Source: Sinomonas atrocyanea (GTDB taxonomy: Bacteria > Actinomycetota > Actinomycetes > Actinomycetales > Micrococcaceae). Taken from it: a stretch of 64,000 nucleotides of DNA. Where the stretch lies: assembly GCF_030811715.1 (NCBI RefSeq), contig NZ_JAUSRH010000001.1:248001-312000 (forward strand), in the 5' to 3' direction. The notes beneath the pieces are model-generated. The model ran no database searches. It was given only the letters and a program-made list of their open reading frames with translations, and had not been told where the DNA came from. Both the position numbers and the translations under genes were made by a program. The first letter of the stretch is position 1, and every line of letters starts with the position of its first letter. This document shows, in pieces, positions 9,478-59,681 of this stretch.

Positions 9478-10622
9478 CCGAACAGACCCCCACGCCCGCA
9501 GCGGCGGCCCGCTTCCCCAGCCCCCGGGTGGCCCCGCAGATCGCCCAGACCGCGGACCACCACCTCGACATCGAGGAGGTCACGAAGGACTTCGGGCGCC
9601 AGCAGGTGCTCAAGGGCATCAACCTCTCGGTGGCCCGGGGCGGGACCACCGCGATCGTCGGCCCGAGCGGTTCCGGCAAGACCACGCTCCTGCGGCTCAT
9701 CGCCGGGTTCGAGGCGCCGGACACCGGCCGGATCCTCATGGACGGCAAGGAGGTCGCCGGCAGCACCTGGGTGCCCGCGCACCGGCGCAACATCGGCTAC
9801 GTCGCGCAGGACGGCGCACTGTTCCCGCACCTGTCCGTGGGGCAGAACGTCGCGTTCGGCCTGGACCGCGAGAAGTTCCGGGGGCGCAGGGCGGTCCAGG
9901 AGCGGGTCGAGGAGCTGCTGGACATGGTGGCCCTCGACCCCGCGTACGCGAAGCGCCGCCCCCACCAGCTCTCCGGCGGCCAGCAGCAGCGGATCGCCCT
10001 CGCCCGCGCGATGGCGTGCGAGCCCGAGGTCATGCTCCTGGACGAGCCGTTCTCCGCGCTCGACGCCGGCCTCCGGGTCGCCACGCGCCGCGCGATCGGC
10101 AAGGTCCTGCACCACGCAGGGGTGACCACCATCCTCGTCACCCACGACCAGGCCGAGGCCCTCTCCTTCGCCGACCAGGTCGCCGTGATGCGCGGCGGCC
10201 GGCTCGCCCAGATCGGCAACCCGTTCGTGGTCTACACCCGGCCCGCGGACCGTGCCACGGCCGAGTTCCTCGGCGACGCCGTGATCCTCGACGCCTGGCT
10301 CGAGGGCTCCCTCGCCATGTGCTCCCTCGGCGCGATTCCCGTCCGCCGGCCGCCGGCCCAGGGCCGCGTGCAGATCATGCTGCGCCCCGAGCAGATCCGC
10401 ATCGCCGCCGACTCGCGCATCCACGGCACGGTCCTCGACTGGGACTACTTCGGCCCCGAGTCCTCGGTGCGGATCAAGCTGCCCGAGCGCCCCGCGGACC
10501 CGCGCATCCCCGGCGGCGGCGAGGTCATCACCATCCGCCACTGGAACGCCGCGATGGCCCGGGCCGGGATGGACCTTGCCCTCAAGGTCATCGGCGAGGG
10601 CGTGGCCTTCCCCGTCGACTGA
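9474..10622 (+). CDS. ferric iron ABC transporter ATP-binding protein (FbpC-like)
   Basis: A 382-residue ATPase. Walker A GPSGSGKTT is at residues 63-71, the signature LSGGQQQR at 166-173 and Walker B VMLLDEP at 186-192; the C-terminal third (MLRPEQIRIA and beyond) is a TOBE regulatory domain as in FbpC/PotA/MalK subunits. GTG start at 9474 overlaps the permease stop by four bases (GTGA), coupling translation. An N-terminal extension of about 30 residues before the ABC domain is unusual but open and in frame. Last gene of the iron-regulated operon. Confidence 0.92.
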   Translation: MTEQTPTPAAAARFPSPRVAPQIAQTADHHLDIEEVTKDFGRQQVLKGINLSVARGGTTAIVGPSGSGKTTLLRLIAGFEAPDTGRILMDGKEVAGSTWVPAHRRNIGYVAQDGALFPHLSVGQNVAFGLDREKFRGRRAVQERVEELLDMVALDPAYAKRRPHQLSGGQQQRIALARAMACEPEVMLLDEPFSALDAGLRVATRRAIGKVLHHAGVTTILVTHDQAEALSFADQVAVMRGGRLAQIGNPFVVYTRPADRATAEFLGDAVILDAWLEGSLAMCSLGAIPVRRPPAQGRVQIMLRPEQIRIAADSRIHGTVLDWDYFGPESSVRIKLPERPADPRIPGGGEVITIRHWNAAMARAGMDLALKVIGEGVAFPVD

Positions 10623-10698
10623 CCCGCCCCTCCCTCCCCCGCCCAGCCCATCCCCCGCCCCGCCTGCCCACCTACCGCGCCCACCCCCGTCACCCCCG

Positions 10699-10772
10699 TT
10701 TCGGGTACGCATCTCGTCGCCTTCCCGGCCTTCCGGGTACGCATCCCGTCGCCTTCCCGGCCTTACGGGTAC
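10699..10772. repeat. 32-bp tandem repeat, locus 1 (three starts)
   Basis: Units beginning TTTCGGGTACGCATCTCGTC (10699), TTCCGGGTACGCATCCCGTC (10731) and TTACGGGTAC (10763) recur at exactly 32-bp spacing; the third unit is truncated. The same unit with the same period occurs in reverse orientation at 15537-15616. It fills part of the gap between the iron operon and the MBL-fold gene; no gene or promoter is apparent in it. Confidence 0.85.
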
Positions 10773-10828
10773 GACGGCGACCGCCCGCCTCCCGCGGGCG
10801 GCCCACCCGAGGCGGGCGGCCGGCGTCG
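10772..10828. terminator. imperfect long hairpin of the ACGACGGCG family
   Basis: Arms 10772-10789 and 10811-10828 pair over 18 bp with three mismatches, enclosing a CGCGGGCG-containing loop. Related arms are found at 35280-35324 and 58539-58594. It may terminate the iron operon transcript; no U-tract follows. Confidence 0.5.
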
Positions 10829-10850
10829 TGCGCGGGGCTACGCTGAAGGC

Positions 10851-11642
10851 ATGGCCGACGACGTCACCGCCCCCGCGACCCGCTGGGTCCGCAGCTCAGC
10901 CCTCACGCGCTACCGCCTCGCCCCCAACCCGGGGCCGATGAGCCTGGACGGGACGAACTCGTACGTGATCGCGGCGCCGGGCTCGGAGTCGGTGGTGGTC
11001 GTGGACCCGGGCCCCCTCGATGCCGAGCACCTGGCCGAGCTGGCCGGCGTCGGGCATGTCGAGCTCGTAGTCCTCACGCACCACCACCCGGACCACACCG
11101 AGGCGGCCGAGGAGTTCCACCGCATGACCGGCGCCCCCGTGCGCGCCAGGGACGCCGCGCTGTGCCTCGGCGCGGGGCCGCTCGAGGACGGCGAGCGCCT
11201 CGAGGCCGCCGGGGTGCGGATCGAGGTCCTCGCCACCCCGGGGCACACGGCGGACTCGATCTGCCTGGCGCTCCCTGACGACGGCGAGCACGGCGCCGTG
11301 CTCACGGGCGACACGATCCTGGGCCGCGGCACGACCGTCATCGTGTTCCCGGACGGGCGGCTCGGCGACTACCTCGCGACCCTGCGCCGGCTCGAGGCCT
11401 TGGGCCCCGCCACGGTGCTGCCCGCCCACGGGCCGGTGCTCCCGGACCTCGCGGGAATCGCGCGCGCCTACCTCGCCCACCGCGAGGAGCGGCTCGACCA
11501 GGTGCGCGCTGCCCTCGCGGAGCTGGGCCCTGGGGCAACGGTCGCTCAGGTGACGGACGCCGTGTACGCGGACGTCGATGCGAGCGTGCGCCGCGCCGCC
11601 GAGAACTCGGTCGCCGCCCAGCTGGACTACCTGCGCGGGTAG
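10851..11642 (+). CDS. MBL-fold metallohydrolase (LACTB2/glyoxalase II-like)
   Basis: A 263-residue metallo-beta-lactamase-fold protein. The metal-binding HHHPDH is at residues 77-82, a third ligand region GHTADS at 131-136, LTGDTILGRG supplies the bridging Asp and LPAHGP a further His. A C-terminal helical segment (LAHREERLDQVRAAL and after) matches the LACTB2-like group, members of which are endoribonucleases or thioesterase-like hydrolases. Cytosolic. ATG at 10851; single gene convergent with the acylphosphatase operon. Substrate unknown. Confidence 0.85.
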   Translation: MADDVTAPATRWVRSSALTRYRLAPNPGPMSLDGTNSYVIAAPGSESVVVVDPGPLDAEHLAELAGVGHVELVVLTHHHPDHTEAAEEFHRMTGAPVRARDAALCLGAGPLEDGERLEAAGVRIEVLATPGHTADSICLALPDDGEHGAVLTGDTILGRGTTVIVFPDGRLGDYLATLRRLEALGPATVLPAHGPVLPDLAGIARAYLAHREERLDQVRAALAELGPGATVAQVTDAVYADVDASVRRAAENSVAAQLDYLRG

Positions 11643-41922: not shown

Positions 41923-43140
41923 CTACCCGGCGCTGGCCGCCGCGAGGGCGGCCTCCACCCCGGCCGGGGAGAGGACGTGCTGGGAGACGAGCTGGCTCGC
42001 GCCCATGACGGCGGCACGCTCGCCCGCGCGGGAGAGCACGATCCGCAGGTTGGTGGTCGCGAGCGGGGGCGAGCGGTGGTACACGACCTCGCGGACCCCC
42101 GCCATGACGTGCTCCCCCGCGGCCGCGACTGAGCCTCCGATGACGATCACGCTGGGGTTGAGCAGGTTCACGCACGTGGCGAGCACCTCGCCGATGTCGC
42201 GGCCGGCCTGCCGCAGCCCCTGGATCGCGGCCAGGTTGCCGTGCGAGGCGAGGCCGACGACGTCGGCGCCGGTGGCCGCCTCGATGCCCTGGGCGGCGAG
42301 CGAGCGGGCGACGGCGGCTCCCGACGCGAGCGCCTCGAGGCACCCGACGTTGCCGCAGCGGCAGACGACGTCGGCGCCGCGCGCGACGCGCACGTGGCCG
42401 ATGTCGCCGGCCGTGCCGTCCGCCCCGCGCTGGAGCTGGCCGCTCGAGATGATCCCGGACCCGATGCCGGTGGCGACCTTGATGAAGAGCAGGTCGTCCA
42501 CGCCGGGCCAGAACGCGGCCCGCTCGCCGAGGGCCATGATATTCACGTCGTTGTCGACGAGCACCGGCACGGGCAGCGAGCGCTGGACGAACCCGACCAC
42601 GTCGAACCCGTCCCAGCCCGGCATGATGGGCGGCTTCACGGGCCGCCCGGTCGCGTGCTCGACCGGCCCCGGCAGGCCGATCCCGACGCCGGCGAGCAGC
42701 GACTGCGGCCGCTTGCTGTCGGCCAGGAGCTTCCGGGCGGAGTCGACCACGTAGCCGAGCACAGCCTCGGGGCCCTGGGCGACGGGCATCTGGGCGCGCC
42801 GCTCGGCCAGCACCTCGCCGTTGAGGTCGGTGAGGGCCACGCGCACGTGGCTCGCGCCGACGTCGACCGCGAGGACGGTGCGCGCCTGCGGGTGGAACGC
42901 GAAGCGCGACGGCGGGCGGCCGCCGCTCGAGAGGGCCTCGCCGACGGACACGACGAGGCCGGAGTTCAGCAGGAGGTCCACCTTGCCCGCCACGGTGGAC
43001 CGGGCGAGGCCCGTGGTCATGGCGAGCTCGGCGCGGGTCCACGGCCGGCCGTCGCGCAGCAGCTGGAAGAGGTCGCCGGCGCGGCCGAGGCCCCCGCCGG
43101 CCTCGGGGGCCGCGGGCTGGGCGCTGGGGGGCGACGTCAT
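41923..43140 (-). CDS. ROK-family transcriptional repressor
   Basis: A 405-residue regulator: N-terminal winged helix (about 25-75, WTRAELAMTTGLARSTVAGKV), then an ASKHA-fold ROK domain with VLAVDVGASHVRVAL, the ROK zinc site around GHVRVARGADVVCRCGNVGC and the LVDNDVNIMALGE sugar-binding strand. Such repressors (NagC/XylR type) release DNA on binding a sugar or sugar phosphate. It is divergent from the dehydrogenase/ABC transporter operon and is the obvious candidate to control it. Confidence 0.92.
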   Translation of the reverse strand: MTSPPSAQPAAPEAGGGLGRAGDLFQLLRDGRPWTRAELAMTTGLARSTVAGKVDLLLNSGLVVSVGEALSSGGRPPSRFAFHPQARTVLAVDVGASHVRVALTDLNGEVLAERRAQMPVAQGPEAVLGYVVDSARKLLADSKRPQSLLAGVGIGLPGPVEHATGRPVKPPIMPGWDGFDVVGFVQRSLPVPVLVDNDVNIMALGERAAFWPGVDDLLFIKVATGIGSGIISSGQLQRGADGTAGDIGHVRVARGADVVCRCGNVGCLEALASGAAVARSLAAQGIEAATGADVVGLASHGNLAAIQGLRQAGRDIGEVLATCVNLLNPSVIVIGGSVAAAGEHVMAGVREVVYHRSPPLATTNLRIVLSRAGERAAVMGASQLVSQHVLSPAGVEAALAAASAG

Positions 43141-43185: not shown

Positions 43186-43221
43186 GGGCGTCGAGGACCA
43201 CCAGACTTTTGCTTGACGCCC
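43186..43221. promoter_or_regulatory. inverted repeat overlapping the operon promoter, possible ROK operator
   Basis: GGGCGTC (43186-43192) and GACGCCC (43215-43221) are complementary with a 22-base spacing; the right arm covers the -35 hexamer. Occupancy would block the operon promoter. Confidence 0.4.
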
Positions 43222-43241
43222 GTCATAAGTACCCCTAGGCT
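43213..43241 (+). promoter_or_regulatory. sigma-70-type promoter of the sugar operon
   Basis: TTGACG (43213-43218) and TAGGCT (43236-43241) are separated by exactly 17 bases, a near-consensus housekeeping promoter for this group, about 50 bases before the first start codon. Confidence 0.65.
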
Positions 43242-43292: not shown

Positions 43293-44369
43293 ATGCCACA
43301 GCACGCCGCGGCCGCCGGTGCCCCCGCCATTGGCGTCGGCTTCCTCGGCGCGGGACCGGTCACCCAGGCCATCCACCTCCCGAGCCTGGCCCGGCTGGAC
43401 GAGACGTTCCGCGTCGCCCATGTCATGGACGTGGACTCCGCGGTGGCCTCGACCGTCGCCGCCCGCGTCGGGGCCAGCCACTCGGCCTCGATGGAGTCGC
43501 TCCTCGACGATCCGGCCGTGGACGTGGTCGCGATCTGCAGCCCGCACCAGTTCCACGCCGCCCAGGTCATCGCCGCCTGCCGCGCGGGCAAGAAGGCCGT
43601 GCTGTGCGAGAAGCCGTTCGCCGTCTCCGCGGACGAGGCGGCAGAGATCGCCGCCGTCTCCGCAGAGACCGGCGTCCCGATCCTCGTCGGCGCGATGCAC
43701 ACCTTCGACCCGGGCTGGCTCGCCGCCGAGGAGCTCGCGGGCGGCCTGCTCCGGAGCGCGCACACGCTGCGGTCCTCGATCGTGCTGCCTCCGAACGCGC
43801 GGTTCGAGGACTTCGCCACCGAGGTGATCGCCCGCCCCGCCGCCCCGGAACGGGACCTCGAGGACCCCGCCGTCGTCGCCGCGGTGCTCGAGGGCGGCAT
43901 CCTGGGCCTCGCCATCCACGACCTGCCGCTCGTGCGCCGCTTCGTGCCGGACTTCGCGGACCTCGAGGTCCTGCGCGCCGAGGCCGTGCGGCCGTTCGGC
44001 TACGTGGTCCTCGTGCGCGCCGGCGGCCGCACCATCGAGCTCACCGCCCAGATCTCGTCCGGTGCGACGGCCGCCTGGAAGCCGGACTGGACCTTCGAGG
44101 CCGTCGGCCCCGACTCCGCACTCACCATCACGTTCACGCCCTCCTACGTCCAGGCCGGCTCCGCCGTCGCCGAGCTCACGGCCGGGGCCCGAACCCAGGC
44201 CGCCGGGCCCTTCGGGCACAACGGCTACGAGGGCGAGTGGCGGCGGATCGCCGGGATCGTCGGCGGCACCGAGCGCGCGCCCGCGGCCTCCCAGCTCATC
44301 GACGACCTCCGCTTCGCCGTCGCGATCGTCGACGGCGCCCGCGCCCGCGTCCTGGAGGCCGCCGCATGA
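43293..44369 (+). CDS. Gfo/Idh/MocA oxidoreductase (first gene of sugar operon)
   Basis: A 358-residue NAD(P)-dependent dehydrogenase. The N-terminal Rossmann fold starts with GVGFLGAGPVTQAIHLPSL, CEKPFAV carries the catalytic Lys of the EKP motif, and the C-terminal half is the alpha/beta substrate domain. It lacks the usual G-H-H/D-x-x-H pair in an obvious form; IHDLPLVRRF may hold the His. ATG at 43293 with GAGGAGC upstream. Its stop overlaps the next gene (ATGA). Probably oxidises or reduces a sugar or inositol hydroxyl. Confidence 0.87.
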   Translation: MPQHAAAAGAPAIGVGFLGAGPVTQAIHLPSLARLDETFRVAHVMDVDSAVASTVAARVGASHSASMESLLDDPAVDVVAICSPHQFHAAQVIAACRAGKKAVLCEKPFAVSADEAAEIAAVSAETGVPILVGAMHTFDPGWLAAEELAGGLLRSAHTLRSSIVLPPNARFEDFATEVIARPAAPERDLEDPAVVAAVLEGGILGLAIHDLPLVRRFVPDFADLEVLRAEAVRPFGYVVLVRAGGRTIELTAQISSGATAAWKPDWTFEAVGPDSALTITFTPSYVQAGSAVAELTAGARTQAAGPFGHNGYEGEWRRIAGIVGGTERAPAASQLIDDLRFAVAIVDGARARVLEAAA

Positions 44370-45166
44370 GCTCGCTCCCCCGCTTCACGGTCGCCACCGC
44401 CTCGGCGCCCGGCCTCGCCGAGATCGCCGCGTCCCTGCCGCTCTCGCTCGCCCCGGCCGAGGGGGCGCCGCAGATCGCCGCCGTGGACGGCTCGCCCGGG
44501 TGGGCCCGGCGCGCCGGCGAGACGCTCGCCGCCGGTGCCCTCGCCGTCGTCCTCGGCCCGCCCGCAACGCACGACGACGGCGGGCGGCTCCCCGACGAGG
44601 CCGCCGGCCGGACGGTGATCGCCTGGGACTACGCCTCGAATCCGGGGGTGCTCGCCGCGGCCGAGGCGGCCGCCGCGCTGCGCGGGCGGGCGGTGCTGGC
44701 CGAGTGCCGAGTGACCGTGCCGCGAGCAGACCTCGTCGACGCGGCCCTCCTCGACGCGCTCACGGCCTGCGGGCGGGTCTTCGGCGCGTCAGGCCCTGTC
44801 GAGGCGCTGCACTCCGGTCCCGCCGGGCTGCACTGCGCCGGACACCTCTCCGGGGGCGCTCCGCTCTCGCTCACCCTCGTGGTCACCGCCGCGGGCCCCG
44901 CAGGGCTGTCCCTGCGCCTCCTGACCGACGACGGCGGGCTGACGGCCCGGGTGCCGTCCGCGGCCACGGCAGCCCCCGCCGAGGTCAGGGTCGTGGGCCC
45001 CGACGGCGAGCGGCTCCTGCCGACCCTCTGGGAGACGTCCCGCCGCGCCAGCTGGCGGCGGGCCATCGCGATCGCCGCCGGGGGCCCAGCCTCCGGGGAC
45101 GTCGCGGAGTTCCACCGTACCGCGTCGCTCGCCCCGCCTCCCGCGGGCGGCGGCTCCTCCGCCTGA
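44366..45166 (+). CDS. unknown protein translationally coupled to sugar dehydrogenase
   Basis: A 266-residue soluble protein that I do not recognise. It is alanine-rich (TLAAGALAVVLGPPA, AAEAAAALRGRAVLAECRVTVP) with alternating strands and helices, resembling the second half of a Rossmann-type or Gfo/Idh/MocA protein: TACGRVFGASGPVEALHSGP and LHCAGHLSGGAPLSLTLVVT look like the C-terminal sheet of such dehydrogenases, but no GxGxxG or EKP is present. ATGA overlap with the preceding dehydrogenase implies they are made together, perhaps as subunits. Confidence 0.6.
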   Translation: MSSLPRFTVATASAPGLAEIAASLPLSLAPAEGAPQIAAVDGSPGWARRAGETLAAGALAVVLGPPATHDDGGRLPDEAAGRTVIAWDYASNPGVLAAAEAAAALRGRAVLAECRVTVPRADLVDAALLDALTACGRVFGASGPVEALHSGPAGLHCAGHLSGGAPLSLTLVVTAAGPAGLSLRLLTDDGGLTARVPSAATAAPAEVRVVGPDGERLLPTLWETSRRASWRRAIAIAAGGPASGDVAEFHRTASLAPPPAGGGSSA

Positions 45167-45220
45167 CCCCTCTGTGAACACCCTCCTTTCCAGCACCTCG
45201 ACGACGAAGGGCACACCATC

Positions 45221-46528
45221 ATGACCGCATCCCGTACTACGTTCTCCCGCAGGGGCTTCCTCGGCCTCGCCGCCGCGGCCGCGGCCGTACCCGCGCTCGC
45301 CGCATGCGGCGGCGGATCCGCCTCCGGCGGAAGCAACGGGGACATCAAGTTCTGGGACATGCCATGGGGCACCACGGCCTACACCGACGCGGCGAAGAAG
45401 CTCGTCGAGGGCTACCAACCGGCCTCCGGCAACCTCAAGGCGACCTACCAGACCATCCAGTGGAACAACTTCTACCAGACGTTCTCCTCGGCGATCGCCT
45501 CGAAGACGGGCCCCGCCGTCTCGTCCGGCGGCGGCTTCCAGGCCTTCCAGTTCGACCAGCAGGGCCAGATCGCGCACGCCGACGGCGTGATCGACGCGAT
45601 GAAGAAGAACGGGATGTACGACGACCTGCTGCCCGGCGTCCTCGACCCCTTCAAGTCCGCCAACGGGTACGTCGCGGTCCCCTGGCAGCTGGACATGCGG
45701 GTCTTCTGGTACCGGAAGTCGCTCTTCGACCAGGCGGGCGTTGCCCTGCCGAAGGACTGGGCCACGCTGCTCGAGGCGGGCAAGGCGCTCAAGAAGATCG
45801 GGGCCTTCGGCTTCATGACCGGAGCCGGCGCCGGCAACAACTACGGCAACCACTCGATGATCATGATGATGGTCAACAACGGCGGCGGCGTGTGGACCAA
45901 GGACGGCCAGCTCGACCTCATGAACGACCGCAACGTCGAGGCCGTCGAATTCCTCCTCGAGCTGCGCTCCAACGGCATCATCGACCCCGCCTGCCTGGGC
46001 TACACCACGGACAACATGTCGGCGCAGTGGAAGGACAAGAAGGCCGGGTTCGGGCTCTTCCAGGTAGGCGTGCCCCAGCGCGTGGGCGACACCTCGGGGG
46101 ACATCATGGTCGCCGACCCGATCGCCGGCCCGCACGGGGACAAGGCCACGCTCGTCTTCCCGAACAACCTCATGATGTACAAGAACACCCCGTCCCAGGC
46201 GTCCTCGGAGGCCTTCCTCGTCAACTACCTCGGCCAGCTCAAGGAGCTCTGGAAGCAGAAGCTCATGAACTCGCTGCCGGTCTTCAAGTCGATCACCCAG
46301 ATCCCCGAGTTCGCCAACGATCCGAACAACGTCAAGATCGTCAAGGACTGGCAGCCCATCGCCAAGACGTTCGCCGCGCAGGGTTCCGCCCTCAACGCCA
46401 ACCTCGCCGCACTGGACGGCGGACAGGCGCTGAACCAGTTCACGCAGACCGTGCTCACCGGCCAGACGGACGCCAAGACGGCGCTGCAGACGTTCCAGAC
46501 CAGCCTCCAGTCGGTCATCAAGTCCTGA
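45221..46528 (+). CDS. CUT1-type sugar ABC transporter substrate-binding lipoprotein
   Basis: A 435-residue family-1 solute-binding protein. The leader has a twin-arginine (R10-R11-GFLG) and lipobox A-L-A-A-C with Cys29, so export as a lipoprotein, possibly through Tat. The mature protein begins GDIKFWDMPWG and has YVAVPWQLDMRVFWYRKSLFDQAGV, typical of CUT1 binding proteins for di- and oligosaccharides or glycosides. ATG at 45221 after AAGGGC. Highly biased codon use points to strong expression. Confidence 0.92.
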   Translation: MTASRTTFSRRGFLGLAAAAAAVPALAACGGGSASGGSNGDIKFWDMPWGTTAYTDAAKKLVEGYQPASGNLKATYQTIQWNNFYQTFSSAIASKTGPAVSSGGGFQAFQFDQQGQIAHADGVIDAMKKNGMYDDLLPGVLDPFKSANGYVAVPWQLDMRVFWYRKSLFDQAGVALPKDWATLLEAGKALKKIGAFGFMTGAGAGNNYGNHSMIMMMVNNGGGVWTKDGQLDLMNDRNVEAVEFLLELRSNGIIDPACLGYTTDNMSAQWKDKKAGFGLFQVGVPQRVGDTSGDIMVADPIAGPHGDKATLVFPNNLMMYKNTPSQASSEAFLVNYLGQLKELWKQKLMNSLPVFKSITQIPEFANDPNNVKIVKDWQPIAKTFAAQGSALNANLAALDGGQALNQFTQTVLTGQTDAKTALQTFQTSLQSVIKS

Positions 46529-46542
46529 CCGGGGTGCCCACC

Positions 46543-47499
46543 ATGACAACGACAGCCGGCATCGCCCGGGCCCGCAAGGGCCTGGGCCCGGGCGGCCCCG
46601 GCCGCGCCGCAGAGCCCAACCGCAGGAGCAGGCTCAGCACCCAGGCGAAGCGGACCTTCTTCTGGCTCCTCCTCCCCTCGGTCATCCTGCTCGTCCTCAT
46701 CCACGGCTACCCCCTCGTGTACGCCGCGATCCAGGCAACGCACAACGGGTCCCTCATCGAGACCGGGCAGTTCGTCGGGCTCGAGAATTTCGCGGCCGTG
46801 CTGAACTCGCCGAAGTTCTGGAAGGCCGCCGAGTTCACCCTGGTCTTCACCGTGGTCGGCGTGTTCGGCTCGTGGCTCGTGGGCATGGGCCTGGCCCTGC
46901 TCCTGCGGACCCGCATCCCGGCGGGCGGCACGTTCAAGGTCCTGCTCCTGCTGCCCTGGGTCGTGCCGATCGTCGTCTCCTCGACGGCGTGGAACTGGCT
47001 CGTGGCGACTCCCACGAGCCCGATCCCCACGATCTTCCGTGCGCTCGGGCTCGGCGCGCCCTACTTCCTCGCCGACCCGACGCTGGCCGCCATCATGGTG
47101 TGCCTGTTCAAGGTCTGGGTCAGCTTCCCGTTCATGATGATGATGACGAGCTCCGCCCTGGCCTCCGTGGACGGCACCGTCTACGAGGCTGCGAGCATGG
47201 ACGGGGCCACCCGCTGGCAGCAGTTCACCGGCATCACCCTGCCGCTGATCGCCCGCTCCACGTACATCTCGTGGATCCTCATGACGATCTTCTGCGTCAA
47301 CGACTTCCCCACGATCTACCTCCTCACAGGCGGCGGACCTGTCGACGCGACCACCTCGCTCGTGGTGCTGGCCTACCGCACGGTGTTCCAGGACTTCCAG
47401 ACCGGCACCGGCGTGGCCATCGCCTTCCTCATGACCATGACCCTCGTGGTGGTCTCAGCCCTCCTCTACCGCCAGATCCGAAAGTCGAGCGTCGAATGA
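46543..47499 (+). CDS. sugar ABC transporter permease 1 (MalF-like)
   Basis: A 318-residue inner-membrane permease with about six helices. The EAA loop EAASMDGATRWQQFTGITLP that docks the ATPase is intact, and the N-terminal tail ends in RTFFWLLLPSVILLVLIHGYPL. ATG at 46543; the GTG nine bases earlier is less likely. Overlaps permease 2 by four bases (ATGA). No ATPase gene is in the operon, as usual for CUT1 systems sharing a MsmK/UgpC-type ATPase. Confidence 0.92.
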   Translation: MTTTAGIARARKGLGPGGPGRAAEPNRRSRLSTQAKRTFFWLLLPSVILLVLIHGYPLVYAAIQATHNGSLIETGQFVGLENFAAVLNSPKFWKAAEFTLVFTVVGVFGSWLVGMGLALLLRTRIPAGGTFKVLLLLPWVVPIVVSSTAWNWLVATPTSPIPTIFRALGLGAPYFLADPTLAAIMVCLFKVWVSFPFMMMMTSSALASVDGTVYEAASMDGATRWQQFTGITLPLIARSTYISWILMTIFCVNDFPTIYLLTGGGPVDATTSLVVLAYRTVFQDFQTGTGVAIAFLMTMTLVVVSALLYRQIRKSSVE

Positions 47500-48401
47500 G
47501 CACCGTCCTGCACACGCACACGGCCCCCGCCGGCGGCCGGCCGGACTCCGGGGCCGGCGCGCGGCCCTCCGGGAAGCGCCGCACCGTTTCCGAGGCCGAC
47601 CTGCGCGGGCGCTGGTGGCGCTTCGCGCTCATCCTGGCGATCACCGCCGTGGTCCTCATCCCGATCCTGGTCGTCCTGGTCCTCGCGTTCAGCCCGTCGT
47701 CGACGAGCACGTCCACCGGGCCCACGCTCGAGAACTTCACGAACGTGTTCGAGGAGACCCTGGCCTCGACCTGGCTCAAGAACAGCCTGGTCGTGACCCT
47801 CTCGACCGTCCTCGTCTCCGTCGCGGTCGCCGCCCCGGCCGGGTACGTGCTCTCCCGCGGACGCAGCCGCGCCGTGGCCGGGTACTCGCTGCTGCTGTTC
47901 GTCATGCAGTCGCTGCCGATCATCACCTCGGTGGTCCCGCTGTTCATCCTGTTCGCGACGATGGGCCTCGTCGACAACCTCCTGGGCCTGACGATCGTCT
48001 ACGTCGCCTCCACGATGACCGTGGCGACCTGGATGATGGCCGCCTACTTCGACTCGATCCCCGCCAGCCTCGAGGAGGCCTCGTGGATCGACGGGTGCTC
48101 GGTCTTCGGCTCGTTCCGGAAGATCGTGCTGCGCAACAGCCTCCCCGGCGTGCTCTCGACCGCGATCTTCGCCTTCCTCCTGGCCTGGAACGACTACCTC
48201 GTGGCGATCGTGTTCCTGCGCTCGAACGAGATCTTCACCCTCCCCATGGGCGTGCAGTCGTTCTTCCAGCAGAACCAGACCGACTGGGGCGGCGTCATGG
48301 CCCTCGCCGTGGTCATGATGCTCCCGCCGATCATCGTCTTCGCCGCGCTGAACAAGTACTTCAGCGTGGGCGGCATCGGCGGCTCGCTCGCCGGCCGCTG
48401 A
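47496..48401 (+). CDS. sugar ABC transporter permease 2 (MalG-like)
   Basis: A 301-residue permease with six helices; the EAA loop reads EEASWIDGCSVFGSFRKIVL, followed by the MalG-type FAFLLAWNDYLVAIVFL and the C-terminal ALNKYFSVGGIGGSLAG. A 40-residue Ala/Arg-rich cytoplasmic tail precedes helix 1. The cysteine in the EAA loop (DGCS) is a mild deviation from the usual DGAS. ATGA overlap with permease 1. Confidence 0.92.
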   Translation: MSTVLHTHTAPAGGRPDSGAGARPSGKRRTVSEADLRGRWWRFALILAITAVVLIPILVVLVLAFSPSSTSTSTGPTLENFTNVFEETLASTWLKNSLVVTLSTVLVSVAVAAPAGYVLSRGRSRAVAGYSLLLFVMQSLPIITSVVPLFILFATMGLVDNLLGLTIVYVASTMTVATWMMAAYFDSIPASLEEASWIDGCSVFGSFRKIVLRNSLPGVLSTAIFAFLLAWNDYLVAIVFLRSNEIFTLPMGVQSFFQQNQTDWGGVMALAVVMMLPPIIVFAALNKYFSVGGIGGSLAGR

Positions 48402-48458
48402 CACCCCCGTCCGCCTCAGCACTCCCCTGCCCCCGACCTCCGAGAGGACACTGTCCCC

Positions 48459-49241
48459 ATGACGTACTCCGTGCAGCTCTACTCCGTCCGCGACGCGGTC
48501 GACGCCGACCTGCCGGGCACCATCGCCCGGCTCGCCGAGATCGGCTACACCCAGGTGGAGCCCTACAACTTCGCCGCCCGCGCCGACGAGCTCGCCGCCG
48601 CGTTCGCCGAGCACGGCATCACGGCCCCCACGGCCCACGCGCCCCTCCTGTCCGCGGACCAGGACGAGATCTTCGCCGCCGCCCAGCGGCTCGGCATCGG
48701 CACCGTGATCGACCCGTACCTCCCCGCCGAGCACTGGCAGGACGAGGAGACAATCCGCGACACGGCGGCCCGGCTCAACGCCGCGGCGAAGAAGGGCGCC
48801 GAGCACGGCATCCGCGTGGGCTACCACAACCACGACTGGGAGGTCTCGGCCAGAATCGGGGGCACCACGGCGCTGGAGTTCTTCGCCGGCCTCCTCGACC
48901 CCGAGCTCGTCCTCGAGGTCGACACCTACTGGGCCGCCGTGGGCGGCGAGGACCCGGCCGCGCTCCTGGGGCGCCTCGGCGACCGCGTCGTCGCGATCCA
49001 CCTCAAGGACGGCCCGGTGGACCACGACAAGAAGGCCCAGCTGCCGGCGGGCCAGGGCAAGGTGGACATCTGGGGCGTGATCGCCGCCGCGAAGAGCCTC
49101 GAGGTCGGCGTCGTCGAGTTCGACGACTACGCCGGAGACATCTTCGAGGGCGTCGCGGCGTCCCTGCGCTACCTCGAGGCCGGCGCGCCCGCCGCCTCGT
49201 CGGACGCTGTTGCCGAGGCGAACTCGGGAGCCGCGAAGTGA
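48459..49241 (+). CDS. sugar phosphate isomerase/epimerase-fold TIM barrel (AP_endonuc_2)
   Basis: A 260-residue TIM barrel of the xylose-isomerase-like/AP_endonuc_2 superfamily. Metal ligands sit in RVGYHNHDWE, LVLEVDTYWAA, IHLKDGP and GVVEFDDYAGD. In dehydrogenase-rich operons such barrels act as epimerases or as 3-keto-sugar eliminases/hydratases. ATG at 48459 with GAGAGGAC upstream; overlaps the next dehydrogenase by four bases (GTGA), so coupled to it. Confidence 0.88.
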   Translation: MTYSVQLYSVRDAVDADLPGTIARLAEIGYTQVEPYNFAARADELAAAFAEHGITAPTAHAPLLSADQDEIFAAAQRLGIGTVIDPYLPAEHWQDEETIRDTAARLNAAAKKGAEHGIRVGYHNHDWEVSARIGGTTALEFFAGLLDPELVLEVDTYWAAVGGEDPAALLGRLGDRVVAIHLKDGPVDHDKKAQLPAGQGKVDIWGVIAAAKSLEVGVVEFDDYAGDIFEGVAASLRYLEAGAPAASSDAVAEANSGAAK

Positions 49242-50356
49242 GCCGCGGGCCGGTCGGCGTCGCGGTCATCGGCGCGGGCGTCATCTCGAAGCAGTACCTG
49301 GACAACCTCACCGCCTTCCCCGATGTGAAGGTCCACGTCATCGCCGACCTCTTCCCCGAGGCGGCCAGGGCCCGGGCCGAGGAGTACGGGATCGCGGAGC
49401 ACGGCGCCCCCGAGCTCGCGCTGGACCACCCGGACGTGGAGATCATCGTCAACCTCACGATCCCGGCCGCGCACGTCGAGGTCGCCACCGCCGCCGTCCG
49501 GGCCGGCAAGCACGTGTGGACGGAGAAGCCCTTCTCCCTCGACCGCGAGAGCGGCCTTGCGCTGCTGAAGGAGGCGGACGACGCCGGGCTGCGGCTCGGG
49601 TGCGCGCCCGACACCTTCCTGGGGGCGGGCCTGCAGACCGCCCGGCGCGTGATCGAGCGTGGCGACATCGGCGTCCCCCTCACGGCCCAGACGGTCTTCC
49701 AGACCCCGGGCCCGGAGTCCTGGCACCCCAACCCGGCCTTCCTGTTCCAGCCGGGCGCCGGCCCGCTGTTCGACATGGGCCCGTACTACCTCACGGCCCT
49801 GATCCAGACGTTCGGCAGCGTCCGCCGGGTCGCCGCCGTGGGCAGCAAGGCCAAGGCGACCCGCGTCATCGGCTCGGGCCCGAAGGCCGGCGAGGAGTTC
49901 GCCGTCGAGGTCCCCACGCACGTGAGCGCGCTCGCCCAGTTCGAATCGGGTGCCTCGTCCCACAGCATCTTCAGCTTCCAGTCGCCCCGGACCCACATGG
50001 GCTTCGTCGAGATCACCGGGACCGAGGCAACCCTGTCGCTGCCGGACCCGAACTACTTCGACGGCGAACTGCAGATCTGCCGCGTCGGCGAGACGGACTG
50101 GACCGCCATCCCCACCACAGGCCCAGCCAACGGCCGCGGGATGGGCGTGCTGGACATGGCCCGCTCGATCCGGGCCGGTGAGGCCCACCGGGCCACCGGG
50201 CAGCTGGCCTACCACGTGCTCGACACGATGGTCTCGATCTCCGAATCGATCGACTCCGGCGAGTTCATCCCGGTGGCGAGCAGCGCGCCGTCGTCCGCTC
50301 CCCTGCCCGAGGACTGGGCGCCCACCGAGGCGACCCTCGACGGGGTCCGCGCATGA
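49238..50356 (+). CDS. Gfo/Idh/MocA oxidoreductase (second in operon)
   Basis: A 372-residue dehydrogenase: GVAVIGAGVISKQYLDNLTA for the dinucleotide fold, WTEKPFSLDRESGL with the EKP catalytic Lys, and LFDMGPYYLTALIQTFG with the conserved D-x-G-x-Y/H region. GTG start at 49238 overlaps the isomerase stop. The next start (ATG at 50353) again overlaps its stop, giving a three-gene coupled block. Likely oxidises or reduces one hydroxyl of the imported carbohydrate. Confidence 0.9.
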   Translation: MSRGPVGVAVIGAGVISKQYLDNLTAFPDVKVHVIADLFPEAARARAEEYGIAEHGAPELALDHPDVEIIVNLTIPAAHVEVATAAVRAGKHVWTEKPFSLDRESGLALLKEADDAGLRLGCAPDTFLGAGLQTARRVIERGDIGVPLTAQTVFQTPGPESWHPNPAFLFQPGAGPLFDMGPYYLTALIQTFGSVRRVAAVGSKAKATRVIGSGPKAGEEFAVEVPTHVSALAQFESGASSHSIFSFQSPRTHMGFVEITGTEATLSLPDPNYFDGELQICRVGETDWTAIPTTGPANGRGMGVLDMARSIRAGEAHRATGQLAYHVLDTMVSISESIDSGEFIPVASSAPSSAPLPEDWAPTEATLDGVRA

Positions 50357-51507
50357 GCCCCGGGACCGCTCCCGCGGCCGGGCAGCCCCTGGGCGTCGCG
50401 GCGATCGGGTACGCGTTCATGGGCCGCGCGCACTCGCACGCGTGGCGCAACGTGGGCGCGTTCTTCGACGTGCCGGCCATCGAGCAGAAGGTCCTCGTGG
50501 GCCGCCATGCCCAGGACGTGGCCGAGGCCGCCGCGAAGCACGGGTGGGCCGAGTCCGCAACGGACTGGCGCGAGGTGATCGCCCGGGATGACGTGCACAT
50601 CGTGGACATCTGCGCCCCCGGCTGGCTGCACGCCGAGATCGCCGTCGCCGCGCTCGAGGCGGGCAAGCACGTGCTCGTGGAGAAGCCGCTCGCCAACACC
50701 CTCGCCGAGGCGGAGCGGATGGCCGAGGCCGCCCGGGCGGCCCGGGAGCGCGGCATCCAGTCGATGGTCGGCTTCACCTACCGGCGCGTCCCGGCGCTCG
50801 CGTACGCGAAGCAGCTCATCGCGGCCGGGCGGCTCGGCACCGTCCGGGAGGTCCGCGCCTCCTACCTGCAGGACTGGCTCGCCGACGAGGAGGCGCCCAT
50901 GACGTGGCGGCTGCGGAAGGAGACGGCAGGCTCCGGAGCGCTCGGGGACATCGCCTCCCACGCGGTCGACCAGGTGCAGTACCTCCTCGACGACACCGTC
51001 ACGGAGGCCTCCGGCCGGCTGCACCGGTTCGTGCCCCGCCGGCCCGGCCCGGACGGGCCCGAGGACGTGACGGTCGACGACGCCGCCTGGGCCACGCTGT
51101 CCCTCGCCTCCGGGGCGGTCGTCTCGGTCGAGGTCTCCCGCGTCGCGACCGGGCGGAAGAACTCCCTGCGGATCGAGGTCTACGGCTCCGACGGCGCGCT
51201 CGCGTTCGACCTCGAGCGGCCCGGTGAGCTCGAGTTCCTCGACGCCACCGCGCCGGCCGAAGAACAGGGCTTCCGCCGGATCGTCGTGACCGAGCCCGGC
51301 CACCCCTACATGGACGCCTGGTGGCCGCAGGGCCACATGATCGGCTGGGAGCACGCCTTCACCCACCAGGCGCGCGACTTCCTCCTCGCGATCCGGGACG
51401 GGACCGCCCCGTCGCCCTCGTTCGAGGACGGCCTGCAGGTCCAGCGCGTCCTCGCCGCCATCGAGGAGTCCGCCGCCGCCAAGTCCGCCACAGTCCACGT
51501 CGGCTGA
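50353..51507 (+). CDS. Gfo/Idh/MocA oxidoreductase (third in operon; levoglucosan dehydrogenase-like layout)
   Basis: A 384-residue dehydrogenase starting GVAAIGYAFMGRAHSHAWRN, with VEKPLANTLAEAE (catalytic Lys), GFTYRRVPALAYAKQLI, ASYLQDWLADEEAPMTWRL and SGALGDIASHAVDQVQYLL (D-x-x-x-H pair). The F-N/T-YRR, YLQDW and GALGDI-x-x-H segments resemble those I remember in actinobacterial levoglucosan dehydrogenase, a 3-position glycoside oxidase, but substrate identity is inference. Ends 27 bases before the second TIM barrel. Confidence 0.88.
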   Translation: MSPGTAPAAGQPLGVAAIGYAFMGRAHSHAWRNVGAFFDVPAIEQKVLVGRHAQDVAEAAAKHGWAESATDWREVIARDDVHIVDICAPGWLHAEIAVAALEAGKHVLVEKPLANTLAEAERMAEAARAARERGIQSMVGFTYRRVPALAYAKQLIAAGRLGTVREVRASYLQDWLADEEAPMTWRLRKETAGSGALGDIASHAVDQVQYLLDDTVTEASGRLHRFVPRRPGPDGPEDVTVDDAAWATLSLASGAVVSVEVSRVATGRKNSLRIEVYGSDGALAFDLERPGELEFLDATAPAEEQGFRRIVVTEPGHPYMDAWWPQGHMIGWEHAFTHQARDFLLAIRDGTAPSPSFEDGLQVQRVLAAIEESAAAKSATVHVG

Positions 51508-51534
51508 GCGAAGCCGAAACCCCGAGGAGACCCC

Positions 51535-52539
51535 ATGCCCCGCCCGTTCACCCTGTTCACCGGCCAGTGGGCCGACCTGAAGCTCGAGGAGGTCGCCGAG
51601 CTCGCCGCCGGGTGGGGCTACGACGGCCTCGAGATCGCCGTCTCCGGCGAGCACCTCGACGCCTCCCGCTGGGACGATCAGGCCTACATCGACGAGCGCC
51701 TGGGCATCCTCGCCCGCCACGGCCTGGGCCTGTACGCGATCTCGAACCACCTCAAGGGCCAGGCCGTGTGCGACGACCCGATCGACTTCCGCCACCAGGG
51801 GATTGTCGGCTCGGCGGTGTGGGGCGACGGCGACCCCGAGGGCGTCCGGCGCCGCGCCGCCGAGGACCTCAAGGACACCGCCCGCCTGGCCAAGGCGCTC
51901 GGGGTCAAGACCGTGGTCGGGTTCACCGGCTCGAGCATCTGGCAGTACGTGGCCATGTTCCCGCCCGTCCCCGCGGCCGTGATCGACGCCGGCTACCAGG
52001 ACTTCGCCGACCGGTGGAACCCCATCCTGGACGTCTTCGACGAGTGCGGGGTCCGGTTCGCCCACGAGGTCCACCCCTCCGAGATCGCGTACGACTACGT
52101 CTCCACCCAGCGTGCGCTCGAGGCCATCGGCCACCGGCCCGCGTTCGGGCTGAACTGGGACCCCTCCCACATGATGTGGCAGGGCCTGGACCCGGTCGCG
52201 TTCATCACCGACTTCCCCGACCGGATCTACCACGTGGACTGCAAGGACACCCGGATGCGCATGGGCAACGGCCGCGCCGGCATCCTCTCCTCCCACCTGC
52301 CCTGGGGCGACCCCCGCCGCGGCTGGGACTTCGTCTCCGCCGGCCGCGGCGACGTCCCCTGGGAGGACTGCTTCCGCGCCCTGACCGCGATCGGCTACGA
52401 CGGGCCCATCAGCATCGAATGGGAGGACGCCGGCATGGACCGCCTCGTCGGCGCCCCCGAAGCCCTCGCAGCCCTCAAGCGCTTCGACTTCGCCCCCGCC
52501 ACCGCCTCCTTCGACGCCGCCTTCAGCAACCAGACCTGA
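51535..52539 (+). CDS. TIM-barrel sugar isomerase/epimerase-like enzyme (second)
   Basis: A 334-residue AP_endonuc_2-type barrel. Likely metal ligands are in FAHEVHPSEIAYD, FGLNWDPSHMMW, IYHVDCKDTRMR and ISIEWEDAGMD. This longer form is common next to Gfo/Idh/MocA genes and is annotated as inosose isomerase/dehydratase-like or, in 3-keto-glycoside pathways, as an eliminase/hydratase. ATG at 51535 after CCGAGGAG. Last structural gene of the operon. Confidence 0.88.
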   Translation: MPRPFTLFTGQWADLKLEEVAELAAGWGYDGLEIAVSGEHLDASRWDDQAYIDERLGILARHGLGLYAISNHLKGQAVCDDPIDFRHQGIVGSAVWGDGDPEGVRRRAAEDLKDTARLAKALGVKTVVGFTGSSIWQYVAMFPPVPAAVIDAGYQDFADRWNPILDVFDECGVRFAHEVHPSEIAYDYVSTQRALEAIGHRPAFGLNWDPSHMMWQGLDPVAFITDFPDRIYHVDCKDTRMRMGNGRAGILSSHLPWGDPRRGWDFVSAGRGDVPWEDCFRALTAIGYDGPISIEWEDAGMDRLVGAPEALAALKRFDFAPATASFDAAFSNQT

Positions 52540-52617
52540 CCCTCCCCAACGACGCGCAGGAGGGGCGGGCCGTTAGCCTCTGACATTTTTGGTGACACAT
52601 CGACCTAAAATGAAGGT

Positions 52618-53256
52618 ATGCCCCGCATCCAGGCCGAGTCGAACGCAGCCCAGCGAGCGCTCACGCAGCGCCGGATCCTCGACGCGTTCGGCGAGCTCCT
52701 GTTCACCCGCGGGCTGCCCGGGCTGACCATGACCGACGTGGCCCGGCAGGCCGGGGTCGGCCGGACCGCCGTGTACAACTACTACGCGGACATGGAGGAA
52801 CTGCTGATCGGCTACGCCCTCGATGAGACGGGCCGGTTCCTCGGCGACCTCAAGGCGAAGCTGTCGGGGCTCGAGAATCCCATCGACCGTCTCGCGGTGT
52901 ACATCCGCGCGCAGGTCGAGGACCTCTCCCGCCGCCACCTGCCACCCGGGCCGGCGATGCGGGCGGTGCTCTCGCCGTCGTCCTTCGCCAAGCTCGGCGA
53001 CCACGTCGGCGAGCTCAACGCGCTCTTGACCCAGATCCTCCGCGACGCGATGGCGCAGGGCTACCTTCCCGAGGCCGACGTGGACGAGCTCGTGGGGCTC
53101 GTCCACGGCTCGCTGACCGCGAGCGCCGACCGCGGCCGTGGCGAGGACGAGGCGCACGACGACGACGCGGACCGCCGCACCGAGGCCACCGTCCGCTTCA
53201 TCCAGCTCGGGGTGGGCGCCCGGTTCGACCGCCAGGGCAGGCCCCTGCGCCGCTGA
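52618..53256 (+). CDS. TetR-family regulator
   Basis: A 212-residue regulator with an N-terminal TetR helix-turn-helix (about 20-62, RRILDAFGELLFTRGLPGLT and VARQAGVGRTAVYNYYADME). The C-terminal ligand domain ends in an acidic loop (DRGRGEDEAHDDDADRR). Own promoter: TAAAAT at 52612-52617 region immediately before the GAAGGT ribosome site suggests a very short leader. It is separate from the sugar operon; its target is unknown. Confidence 0.88.
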   Translation: MPRIQAESNAAQRALTQRRILDAFGELLFTRGLPGLTMTDVARQAGVGRTAVYNYYADMEELLIGYALDETGRFLGDLKAKLSGLENPIDRLAVYIRAQVEDLSRRHLPPGPAMRAVLSPSSFAKLGDHVGELNALLTQILRDAMAQGYLPEADVDELVGLVHGSLTASADRGRGEDEAHDDDADRRTEATVRFIQLGVGARFDRQGRPLRR

Positions 53257-58356: not shown

Positions 58357-58381
58357 CGATGTCCTCTGGACATCGCACGCG

Positions 58382-58466
58382 CGGAGGATGGGGGATTTGA
58401 ACCCCCGAGGGCGTTAACCCAACACGCGTTCCAGGCGTGCGCCATAGGCCGCTAGGCGAATCCTCC
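58382..58466 (-). tRNA. tRNA-Ser (anticodon GGA)
   Basis: On the minus strand the 85-base gene folds with a 7-bp acceptor GGAGGAT/ATCCTCC, discriminator G, D-arm around CGCCTAGCGGCC, anticodon stem-loop with CTGGAAC (anticodon GGA), a long class II variable arm and T-arm CGGGGGTTCAAATCCCCC-type. A long variable arm with the G discriminator is serine-specific. CCA is not encoded. Confidence 0.95.
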
Positions 58467-59386: not shown

Positions 59387-59533
59387 GATTCCCCCTGCTC
59401 CCTGCTGTTGGAGGGCCCCGGTGCGGAGCCCGATCACTGCATAGCGCCAGTCTGACCGCTTCCCGTGCGTCGCGCGAGTACACGCGCGGGAAGCCGATTC
59501 GGGGCTCGCCCGGAACTGGGCTACGATGGTTCC

Positions 59534-59623
59534 CAGCCCCTCATGTGGCGTCATCCTGCTGAACTCCCCCAGGACCGGAAGGTAGCAAGGGTAAGTGGGC
59601 TCTGGCGGGTGCATGAGGGGCCT
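59534..59623 (+). ncRNA. ffs: signal recognition particle RNA, small bacterial type
   Basis: The conserved SRP domain IV is complete: CTGCTGAACTCCCCCAGG, then ACCGGAAGGTAGCAAGGG with the GGAA tetraloop and asymmetric loop that bind Ffh, closed by complementary ends CCCCTCATG and CATGAGGGG (59537 to 59620). A T-rich CCTTTTCC follows, consistent with termination. Ends are approximate. The gene stands directly before dnaX, its usual place in actinobacteria. Confidence 0.92.
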
Positions 59624-59681
59624 TTTCCGTACCTGTGGATAACCGGGCTGGGTGTCGGCCCCGATTGGTAGGGTTTCTGAC

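Follow-up and report, generated by a model that had tools for sequence, protein, structure and literature searches.

Relation of the locus to described systems

How glycosides are cleaved without hydrolysis has been worked out only recently; how widespread such cleavage is in soil actinobacteria, and on which substrates it acts there, is in our assessment poorly known. Here we analyzed a nine-gene operon with a divergent regulator gene in a stretch of 64,000 nucleotides (the window) from contig C1 of the 4.23 Mb genome of Sinomonas atrocyanea (G000). The operon encodes three dehydrogenases of the Gfo/Idh/MocA family (GfoA, GfoB and GfoC), two TIM barrel proteins (TIM1 and TIM2), a solute-binding protein (SBP) and two permeases of an ATP-binding cassette (ABC) importer, and a protein of 266 residues matched by no Pfam or NCBIfam model (UNK). 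The analysis established its gene content and homologies, the conservation of active-site residues, the coupling of GfoA with UNK and a TIM2 copy in common with a levoglucosan locus. The operon probably encodes a four-step pathway that cleaves glucosides without hydrolysis. Pathways of this type were already described in 2020 and 2023; what is new is UNK, a conserved and coupled dehydrogenase partner without the motifs of that family.

In Bacillus smithii, levoglucosan is degraded by LgdA-LgdB1-LgdB2-LgdC through oxidation, beta-elimination, hydration and reduction, using two Gfo/Idh/MocA and two sugar-phosphate-isomerase-like enzymes with a sugar ABC importer alongside (accessible text of PMC7676230). 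The window operon shares this scheme but scored below the LgdA cut-off, has a third dehydrogenase and UNK, lacks an ATPase gene beside the importer and coexists with a separate LgdA locus; by sequence the two were compared through the LgdA model. In Agrobacterium, the pathway of the glycoside operon that encodes AtOGE and AtHYD begins with another dehydrogenase, GlycDH (accessible text of PMC10628242). TIM1 is AtOGE-like with the same active-site residues and TIM2 matches the structure 8ro4, whereas the dehydrogenases of the window are of the Gfo type, one of them paired with UNK.

Levoglucosan loci with LgdB3 have been reported from Paenarthrobacter, a member of the same bacterial family, where an orphan barrel beside LgdA was proposed to substitute for LgdB2; the accessible text does not mention a GfoA-UNK pair (PMC10066097). 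The orphan barrel would probably belong to the TIM2 family. TIM1 also matched the barrel structures 8tcd and 8tcs at 62 bits each. These two and 8tct presumably represent the Bacteroides 3-keto-disaccharide enzymes (BT_2158/BT_2159 families), which we take to be of the same chemistry class. The curated BT_2158/BT_2159 models (cut-offs 750 and 650 bits) gave at best 41 and 27 bits in the window. C-glycoside clusters are a further likeness, since a homologue of their oxidases (MtCarA, 7dve, and PsG3Ox, 7qf8, named in the accessible text of PMC10646112) lies near a second form of the pair, GfoA'-UNK', in L129-L132, L148 and L151; none of the ten genes in the window operon codes for such an oxidase.

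Gene organization of the operon

The order GfoA-UNK-SBP-permease-permease-TIM1-GfoB-GfoC-TIM2, with the ROK regulator gene divergent, had been described in a first-pass annotation and was borne out by the open reading frames (ORFs), all found in place, and by the Pfam classes (ROK, three Gfo/Idh/MocA, SBP_bac_1, two BPD_transp_1 and two AP_endonuc_2 TIM barrels). The features of the locus are:

41923-43140, - strand: ROK-family regulator, divergent, probable operon repressor (PF00480, 1.2e-57; weak HTH_IclR at the N terminus)
43213-43241, + strand: putative sigma-70-like promoter between ROK and GfoA, TTGACG-17 bp-TAGGCT (sequence reading, placed by pattern search)
43293-44369, + strand: GfoA, Gfo/Idh/MocA dehydrogenase (PF01408, 7.4e-22)
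44366-45166, + strand: UNK, predicted N-truncated, motif-less Gfo/Idh/MocA-fold protein, partner of GfoA (AlphaFold2 and Foldseek)
45221-46528, + strand: SBP, ABC solute-binding protein (PF01547; probable orthologue of 4r2f)
46543-47499, + strand: ABC permease 1, MalF type (PF00528; MalF model 98.5 bits, under cut-off)
47496-48401, + strand: ABC permease 2, MalG/GlcU type (PF00528; GlcU model 104 bits, under cut-off)
48459-49241, + strand: TIM1, predicted 3-keto-glycoside beta-eliminase, AtOGE-like (8bvk, 78 bits; active-site residues)
49238-50356, + strand: GfoB, Gfo/Idh/MocA oxidoreductase, paired with TIM1 (PF01408, PF22725)
50353-51507, + strand: GfoC, LgdA-like Gfo/Idh/MocA protein, predicted 3-keto-glucose reductase or glucoside 3-dehydrogenase (NF052479, 328 bits)
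51535-52539, + strand: TIM2, predicted 2-hydroxy-3-keto-glucal hydratase (8ro4, 140 bits; 2zds, 526 bits)

The genes had been described as mostly overlapping. The overlaps are real, with ATGA at GfoA/UNK, permease 1/permease 2 and GfoB/GfoC and GTGA at TIM1/GfoB, but of the eight junctions between the forward genes only four overlap, the others being gaps of 14-57 nt, so "mostly" was slightly strong. Neither a sugar kinase nor a glycosidase nor an ABC ATPase was found among the ten genes scanned with Pfam and NCBIfam models, as the first-pass annotation had stated. The ROK protein is read as a regulator and not a kinase because it reached 152 bits against the 260-bit cut-off of the ROK glucokinase model and its N terminus matched an HTH model weakly (19.6 bits, below the cut-off of 22); a ROK gene is present in many of 80 related loci, often divergently. 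A search of the whole genome confined to the MalK-type OB domain found one match, on contig C19, which fits a shared ATPase such as MsiK.

Distribution and context of the GfoA-UNK pair

UNK was detected in 53 of the 395 genomes of the window's family and GfoA in 60, each in 3 of 32 genera, and all 53 genomes were among the 60. For 15 of the 53, the coordinates in both search tables showed UNK on the strand of GfoA and immediately behind it. Seven genomes with GfoA only and two second copies were re-examined with a wider model, which revealed UNK directly downstream in eight of these nine cases. Among all loci from L002 onward, UNK lay next to GfoA in 74 of 77 GfoA matches, a count that includes redundant places. 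The three without it comprise L157, where a deletion makes GfoA run into the end of permease 2, and one truncated GfoA on a short contig that was fetched twice (L139, L153). Two UNK matches without GfoA are fragments of a single broken copy split over two frames (L133, 7003-8030). UNK directly follows GfoA in every undamaged copy examined, and of the 63 distinct pairs, 61 have a start codon in frame with UNK that begins one base ahead of the GfoA stop; the exceptions are L130, with the nearest start 20 bases before the stop, and L143, with a start two bases after the first base of the stop.

The class scan with the wider UNK model gave matches in 8 of 394 genomes, including two of the window's family and one weak match of 22 bits. 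In the phylum scan of 396 genomes with the narrow UNK model, only the window's own genome matched strongly and four weak matches of 15-18 bits were read as chance; GfoA at E<=1e-35 was found in two of these 396 genomes, one being the own genome and the other holding a truncated copy.

The neighbourhoods of the pair differed. In L135-L137, three strains that all belong to the same genus, it faces an opposite-strand operon of permeases, SBP and GfoB-, TIM2- and GfoC-like genes. The GfoA'-UNK' form of L129-L132 is located after a ROK gene and before genes for an MFS transporter and a GMC oxidase; the oxidase of L131 matched the bacterial pyranose oxidase 8qve (399 bits), PsG3Ox (375 bits) and MtCarA (349 bits). 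A transporter and an oxidase are also found near GfoA'-UNK' in L148 and L151, from another family of the same order. In L148 the pair is followed by ring-cleavage-dioxygenase-like and FAA-hydrolase genes (Pfam), and L151 has a gene that by eye is FAA-hydrolase-like. Directly upstream of the pair, L152 encodes a TIM barrel (Pfam) with an N terminus judged by eye to be twin-arginine-like, and L149 has an upstream ORF that looks barrel-like. A term search of PMC10807413 and PMC8563793 yielded nothing usable on the genomic context of the oxidases.

UNK as a probable relative of its partner GfoA

GfoA carries the nucleotide-binding G19-A-G21, the E106-K107-P108 motif and H209, which are invariant in 11 GfoA and GfoA' sequences, and the EKP lysine is present in all three Gfo/Idh/MocA genes. 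The alignment of UNK with GfoA starts past the GxG region, and both the EKP lysine and the catalytic His are absent from UNK, which therefore does not qualify as a catalytic dehydrogenase. A Foldseek search of the Protein Data Bank (PDB) with the AlphaFold2 model of UNK (built with 14 orthologues) gave 99 matches at E<=0.001, the best at 2e-6, and all 50 matches listed were of the Gfo/Idh/MocA type, including imine reductase and biliverdin reductase entries that we take to have this fold. The predicted overall fold of UNK is thus that of Gfo/Idh/MocA proteins, and an hhalign comparison of the UNK profile with GfoA was largely collinear (E 0.0044). Since the predicted fold is kept and the GxG region, the lysine and the histidine are gone, UNK is apparently a shortened, inactive relative of GfoA that has lost the cofactor-binding N terminus and the catalytic residues. 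The first-pass annotation had counted a third dehydrogenase and an unrecognized protein beyond the levoglucosan set; both are present, with the correction that the unrecognized protein would itself be a fourth protein of the Gfo/Idh/MocA fold.

Against this assignment it must be said that the model is of moderate quality only (pLDDT 74, pTM 0.60) with a low-confidence N-terminal part, that the Foldseek TM-scores were only about 0.4, that the hhalign probability was just 7.8%, and that a widened UNK profile (A2) aligned with the C-terminal part of GfoA only (E 0.0068, probability 5.6%).

UNK is under purifying selection. Sixteen of its residues are invariant even when the distant UNK' forms are included, and in nine pairs sharing members its dN/dS was 0.17-0.32 in all nine, compared with 0.09-0.16 for GfoA and 0.03-0.14 for SBP. 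Conservation and dN/dS together rule out UNK as a chance ORF.

To our knowledge, members of the Gfo/Idh/MocA family are made of identical subunits. We propose, with about even odds in our judgement, that UNK is the non-catalytic subunit of a two-subunit GfoA sugar dehydrogenase; most likely the C-terminal sheet domain would join it to GfoA in a hetero-oligomer, in which it would shape or stabilize the substrate site. We give similar weight, about half, to the broader proposal of an obligate GfoA-UNK heteromer in which UNK would be a cofactor-less pseudo-dehydrogenase with a structural or substrate-gating role. The heteromer would then be a portable module taken up by non-hydrolytic glycoside pathways of several kinds (in ABC-import operons, in clusters with a pyranose/C-glycoside oxidase and in TIM barrel clusters), enabling the use of oligosaccharides or aromatic glycosides. 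In L150, the pair (around 10483-11604) lies beside genes that by eye resemble those for acyl-CoA dehydrogenase, CoA-lyase and a peptide-type ABC transporter, with no TIM barrel seen, which goes against a role in glucosides alone; GfoA-UNK may therefore not be confined to glucosides.

Two other explanations of UNK were weighed. A free-standing chaperone, regulator or sugar-binding protein, co-regulated with GfoA without binding it, is rather unlikely. It would fit a GfoA-UNK complex that is so far a proposal and a model with low confidence in its N-terminal part, but UNK is immediately coupled to GfoA in unrelated neighbourhoods, in all undamaged copies, and appears to be of the same fold class. 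Quite improbable is a decaying remnant of a duplicated dehydrogenase, under relaxed constraint and without a function of its own. The faster evolution of UNK relative to GfoA would fit such a remnant, as would the identity of only 30-37% between the window copy and the Arthrobacter-type copies aligned; yet the frame is open and coupled in the 63 distinct pairs, across several families and gene contexts, and neither the invariant residues nor a dN/dS well under 1 in each of the nine pairs compared is expected of decay. A literature search for a heteromeric or inactive Gfo/Idh/MocA partner returned nothing relevant, and as it could not match the slash-written name, no absence is claimed. If UNK is a real subunit, a large dehydrogenase family would include a pseudoenzyme partner, and the access of these enzymes to bulky substrates would be easier to explain. 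Because no Pfam or NCBIfam model marks UNK, the GfoA-UNK pair is also useful as a sequence handle for finding such clusters.

Predicted eliminase, hydratase and dehydrogenases

TIM1 matched 8bvk (78 bits), the structure of the Agrobacterium O-glycoside beta-eliminase AtOGE, whose named active-site residues are Glu39, His66, His132, His134, Glu161, Asp163, His189 and Glu233 (accessible text of PMC10628242). The equivalent residues of TIM1 are E34, H60, H123, H125, E153, D155, H181 and E220, of which E34, H60 and E220 were matched from motif and order, AtOGE Glu233 lying outside the printed TIM1/8bvk alignment. All eight were invariant in 38 TIM1 sequences (the window and those of loci L002-L081 with matches above 200 bits and no internal stop), so that an active site of the AtOGE type is predicted from the alignment. 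TIM2 matched 8ro4, deposited as a 2-hydroxy-3-keto-glucal hydratase, over residues 16-315 (140 bits), with most candidate ligands kept, and 2zds at 526 bits. We take 8ro4 to be AtHYD or a near relative; the code does not occur in the article on that operon. TIM1 is thus predicted to be an AtOGE-like 3-keto-glycoside beta-eliminase and TIM2 a 2-hydroxy-3-keto-glucal hydratase.

In GfoB the EKP lysine is kept as K97 (alignment; invariants in 38 sequences). GfoC matched 6a3f at 290 bits and 4h3v at 452 bits, and its K111, D199 and H203 were invariant in 47 sequences. The residue after the second strand was set aside as a sign of NAD or NADP preference, because the likely LgdC of the same genome has the same "GR" pattern as GfoC, while the LgdC of B. 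smithii was assayed with NADH (accessible text of PMC7676230).

Modularity of the operon among related loci

Eighty related loci were fetched by TIM2 similarity. All nine operon genes occur in order in 11 of them, and therefore the arrangement is more than chance; in L049 they lie around a contig end, and L009 lacks only GfoB. Modules were counted in the 71 loci with enough upstream flank, nine being left out, and genes of at least 100 bits were scored as GfoC-like, so that other LgdA-like genes are included. In 66 of the 71 loci, a GfoC-like gene lay upstream of TIM2 at a distance of no more than 3 kb. In the five exceptions it was about 3.1 kb away (L016, L022), more than 7 kb away (L066, L074), or a match of only 31% at 6.6 kb (L037). 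TIM1 and GfoB occurred together in 33 of 71 loci, whereas L009 has only TIM1 of the two and L038 only GfoB; GfoA, UNK and SBP were found together in 12, and TIM2 with a GfoC-like gene alone in 33.

In L009 (Streptomyces HM190), GfoB is missing, the end of TIM1 runs straight into GfoC, and GfoA-UNK, TIM1, GfoC and TIM2 are kept. This is the smallest natural set with UNK and it matches the four chemical steps. On the module pattern, hydration and reduction would be assigned to TIM2-GfoC, and oxidation and elimination to TIM1 with GfoB or GfoA-UNK. The UNK of L009 is 59% identical to the window copy, closer than the aligned Arthrobacter-type copies, which hints at horizontal transfer. The TIM2 of L010, from a record titled Vibrio cholerae 35D, groups with Arthrobacter, and this assembly is most likely mislabelled or contaminated.

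A hydratase in common with the levoglucosan locus

The LgdA model had 15 matches in the window's own genome, of which one exceeded the cut-off (755 bits, C2:317708). Around this LgdA (L134) lie genes for a second Gfo protein, a TIM protein and TIM2. The TIM2 of L134 is identical to that of the window at 97.9% of DNA positions over 1,019 bp (window 51522-52540; L134 13329-14347), a gene-sized match that extends from 13 bp ahead of the start codon to one base past the stop. The only other DNA match reported between the window operon and L134 was of 68% over 443 columns, inside GfoC/LgdA.

Phylogenetic analysis of 88 TIM2 proteins placed the LgdA-side copies of Sinomonas (L134, L002) nearest to the window copy, and the LgdA-side copy of Pseudarthrobacter (L024) among the window-type copies of Arthrobacter and relatives. 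The neighbours of these TIM2 genes in L134, L002 and L024 scored 755, 751 and 722 bits with the LgdA model, all over the cut-off; the label "lgdlike" in the tree denotes a GfoC score of 200-300 bits (four rows). These results suggest that one hydratase may have been exchanged repeatedly between the two pathways, and such exchange points to a common intermediate, so that the levoglucosan pathway and the window pathway probably share 2-hydroxy-3-keto-D-glucal.

Four LgdA-like dehydrogenases were found in G000 (L082, L083, L084 and L085; 755, 372, 354 and 324 bits). Beside each of them lies a TIM2-like gene (98, 72, 69 and 100% identity, respectively), and for this reason the genome may run several such pathways.

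Proposed pathway and alternatives

In the pathway that we consider probable, a gluco-configured O-glycoside or oligosaccharide, probably not levoglucosan, would be imported through SBP and the two permeases with an ATPase encoded elsewhere. GfoA-UNK and/or GfoB would oxidize C3 of the glucosyl unit, and TIM1, as a metal-dependent beta-eliminase, would free the aglycone and leave 2-hydroxy-3-keto-D-glucal. TIM2 would hydrate this product to 3-keto-glucose, which GfoC would reduce to glucose with recycling of the cofactor. The substrate would be neither hydrolyzed nor phosphorylated. We infer the order of the reactions, which dehydrogenases oxidize and which reduces, and the substrate. The matches of TIM1 to 8bvk, of TIM2 to 8ro4 and of GfoC to LgdA support the redox-mediated cleavage of 3-keto-glycoside type proposed by the first-pass annotation.

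Several observations count against this reconstruction, which was built from sequence comparison. Tyr183 of GfoB replaces a His found in the other four aligned Gfo proteins. The His of "FHVKD" in 8ro4 aligns with Asp235 of TIM2, so that one possible metal ligand differs. GfoC scored 328 bits with the LgdA model NF052479, below the curated cut-off of 650 bits, and is 41% identical to the genome's LgdA as compared with 37% to the second Gfo protein of the LgdA locus, taken as LgdC. It is therefore no more than a candidate reductase. GfoC also reached 210 bits with 5ya8, a scyllo-inositol dehydrogenase that oxidizes L-glucose. The TIM2 of L064, whose neighbour scored 649 bits on the piece scanned, groups apart from the window-type copies.

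That the operon is a plain levoglucosan (Lgd) operon is very unlikely, although GfoC is LgdA-like, TIM2 belongs with the hydratase-like gene beside LgdA and the set of steps is identical. The LgdA that exceeds the cut-off sits on contig C2 of the same genome with its own Gfo, TIM and TIM2 neighbours, and therefore the window operon is not the levoglucosan locus; in addition, a close relative of SBP has been solved as a "sugar transporter" with a ligand. The earlier claim of a pathway related to Lgd yet different from it holds in this respect. Inositol had also been named as a candidate substrate, and an operon for the catabolism of inositol or of scyllo-inositol/L-glucose would agree with the 5ya8 match of GfoC and with weak matches of the barrels to the IolE model. 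We nevertheless regard it as highly improbable. The curated IolG model TIGR04380 gave at best 120 of the 355 bits needed and the IolE model TIGR04379 39 and 44 of 290 bits for the barrels, the matches to LgdA, AtOGE and 8ro4 are closer, and no IolB, IolC or IolD family was named among the ten genes scanned. The comparison with LgdA and Iol enzymes that the first-pass annotation had proposed thus left an LgdA-like protein under its cut-off, by model scores, and no support for inositol.

The substrate of the proposed glucoside pathway may be approached through the importer. A ligand-bound structure from Arthrobacter chlorophenolicus, 4r2f ("sugar transporter ACHL_0255"), is 74% identical to SBP (702 bits), and this solved binding protein makes the question of the substrate directly testable. 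The ligand of 4r2f may be laminarihexaose, an identity on which nothing here depends. A literature search for the 4r2f entry returned nothing relevant, and the predicted structure of SBP was poor (pLDDT 54), so that no ligand was read from it.

Other features of the window

An ORF that by eye resembles a TetR regulator (52618-53256, + strand) begins 78 bp after TIM2, and a similar gene is present at varying distance in some related loci. A tRNA-Ser(gga) (58381-58466, - strand) and a bacterial small SRP RNA (59532-59628, + strand) are ordinary features of the window.

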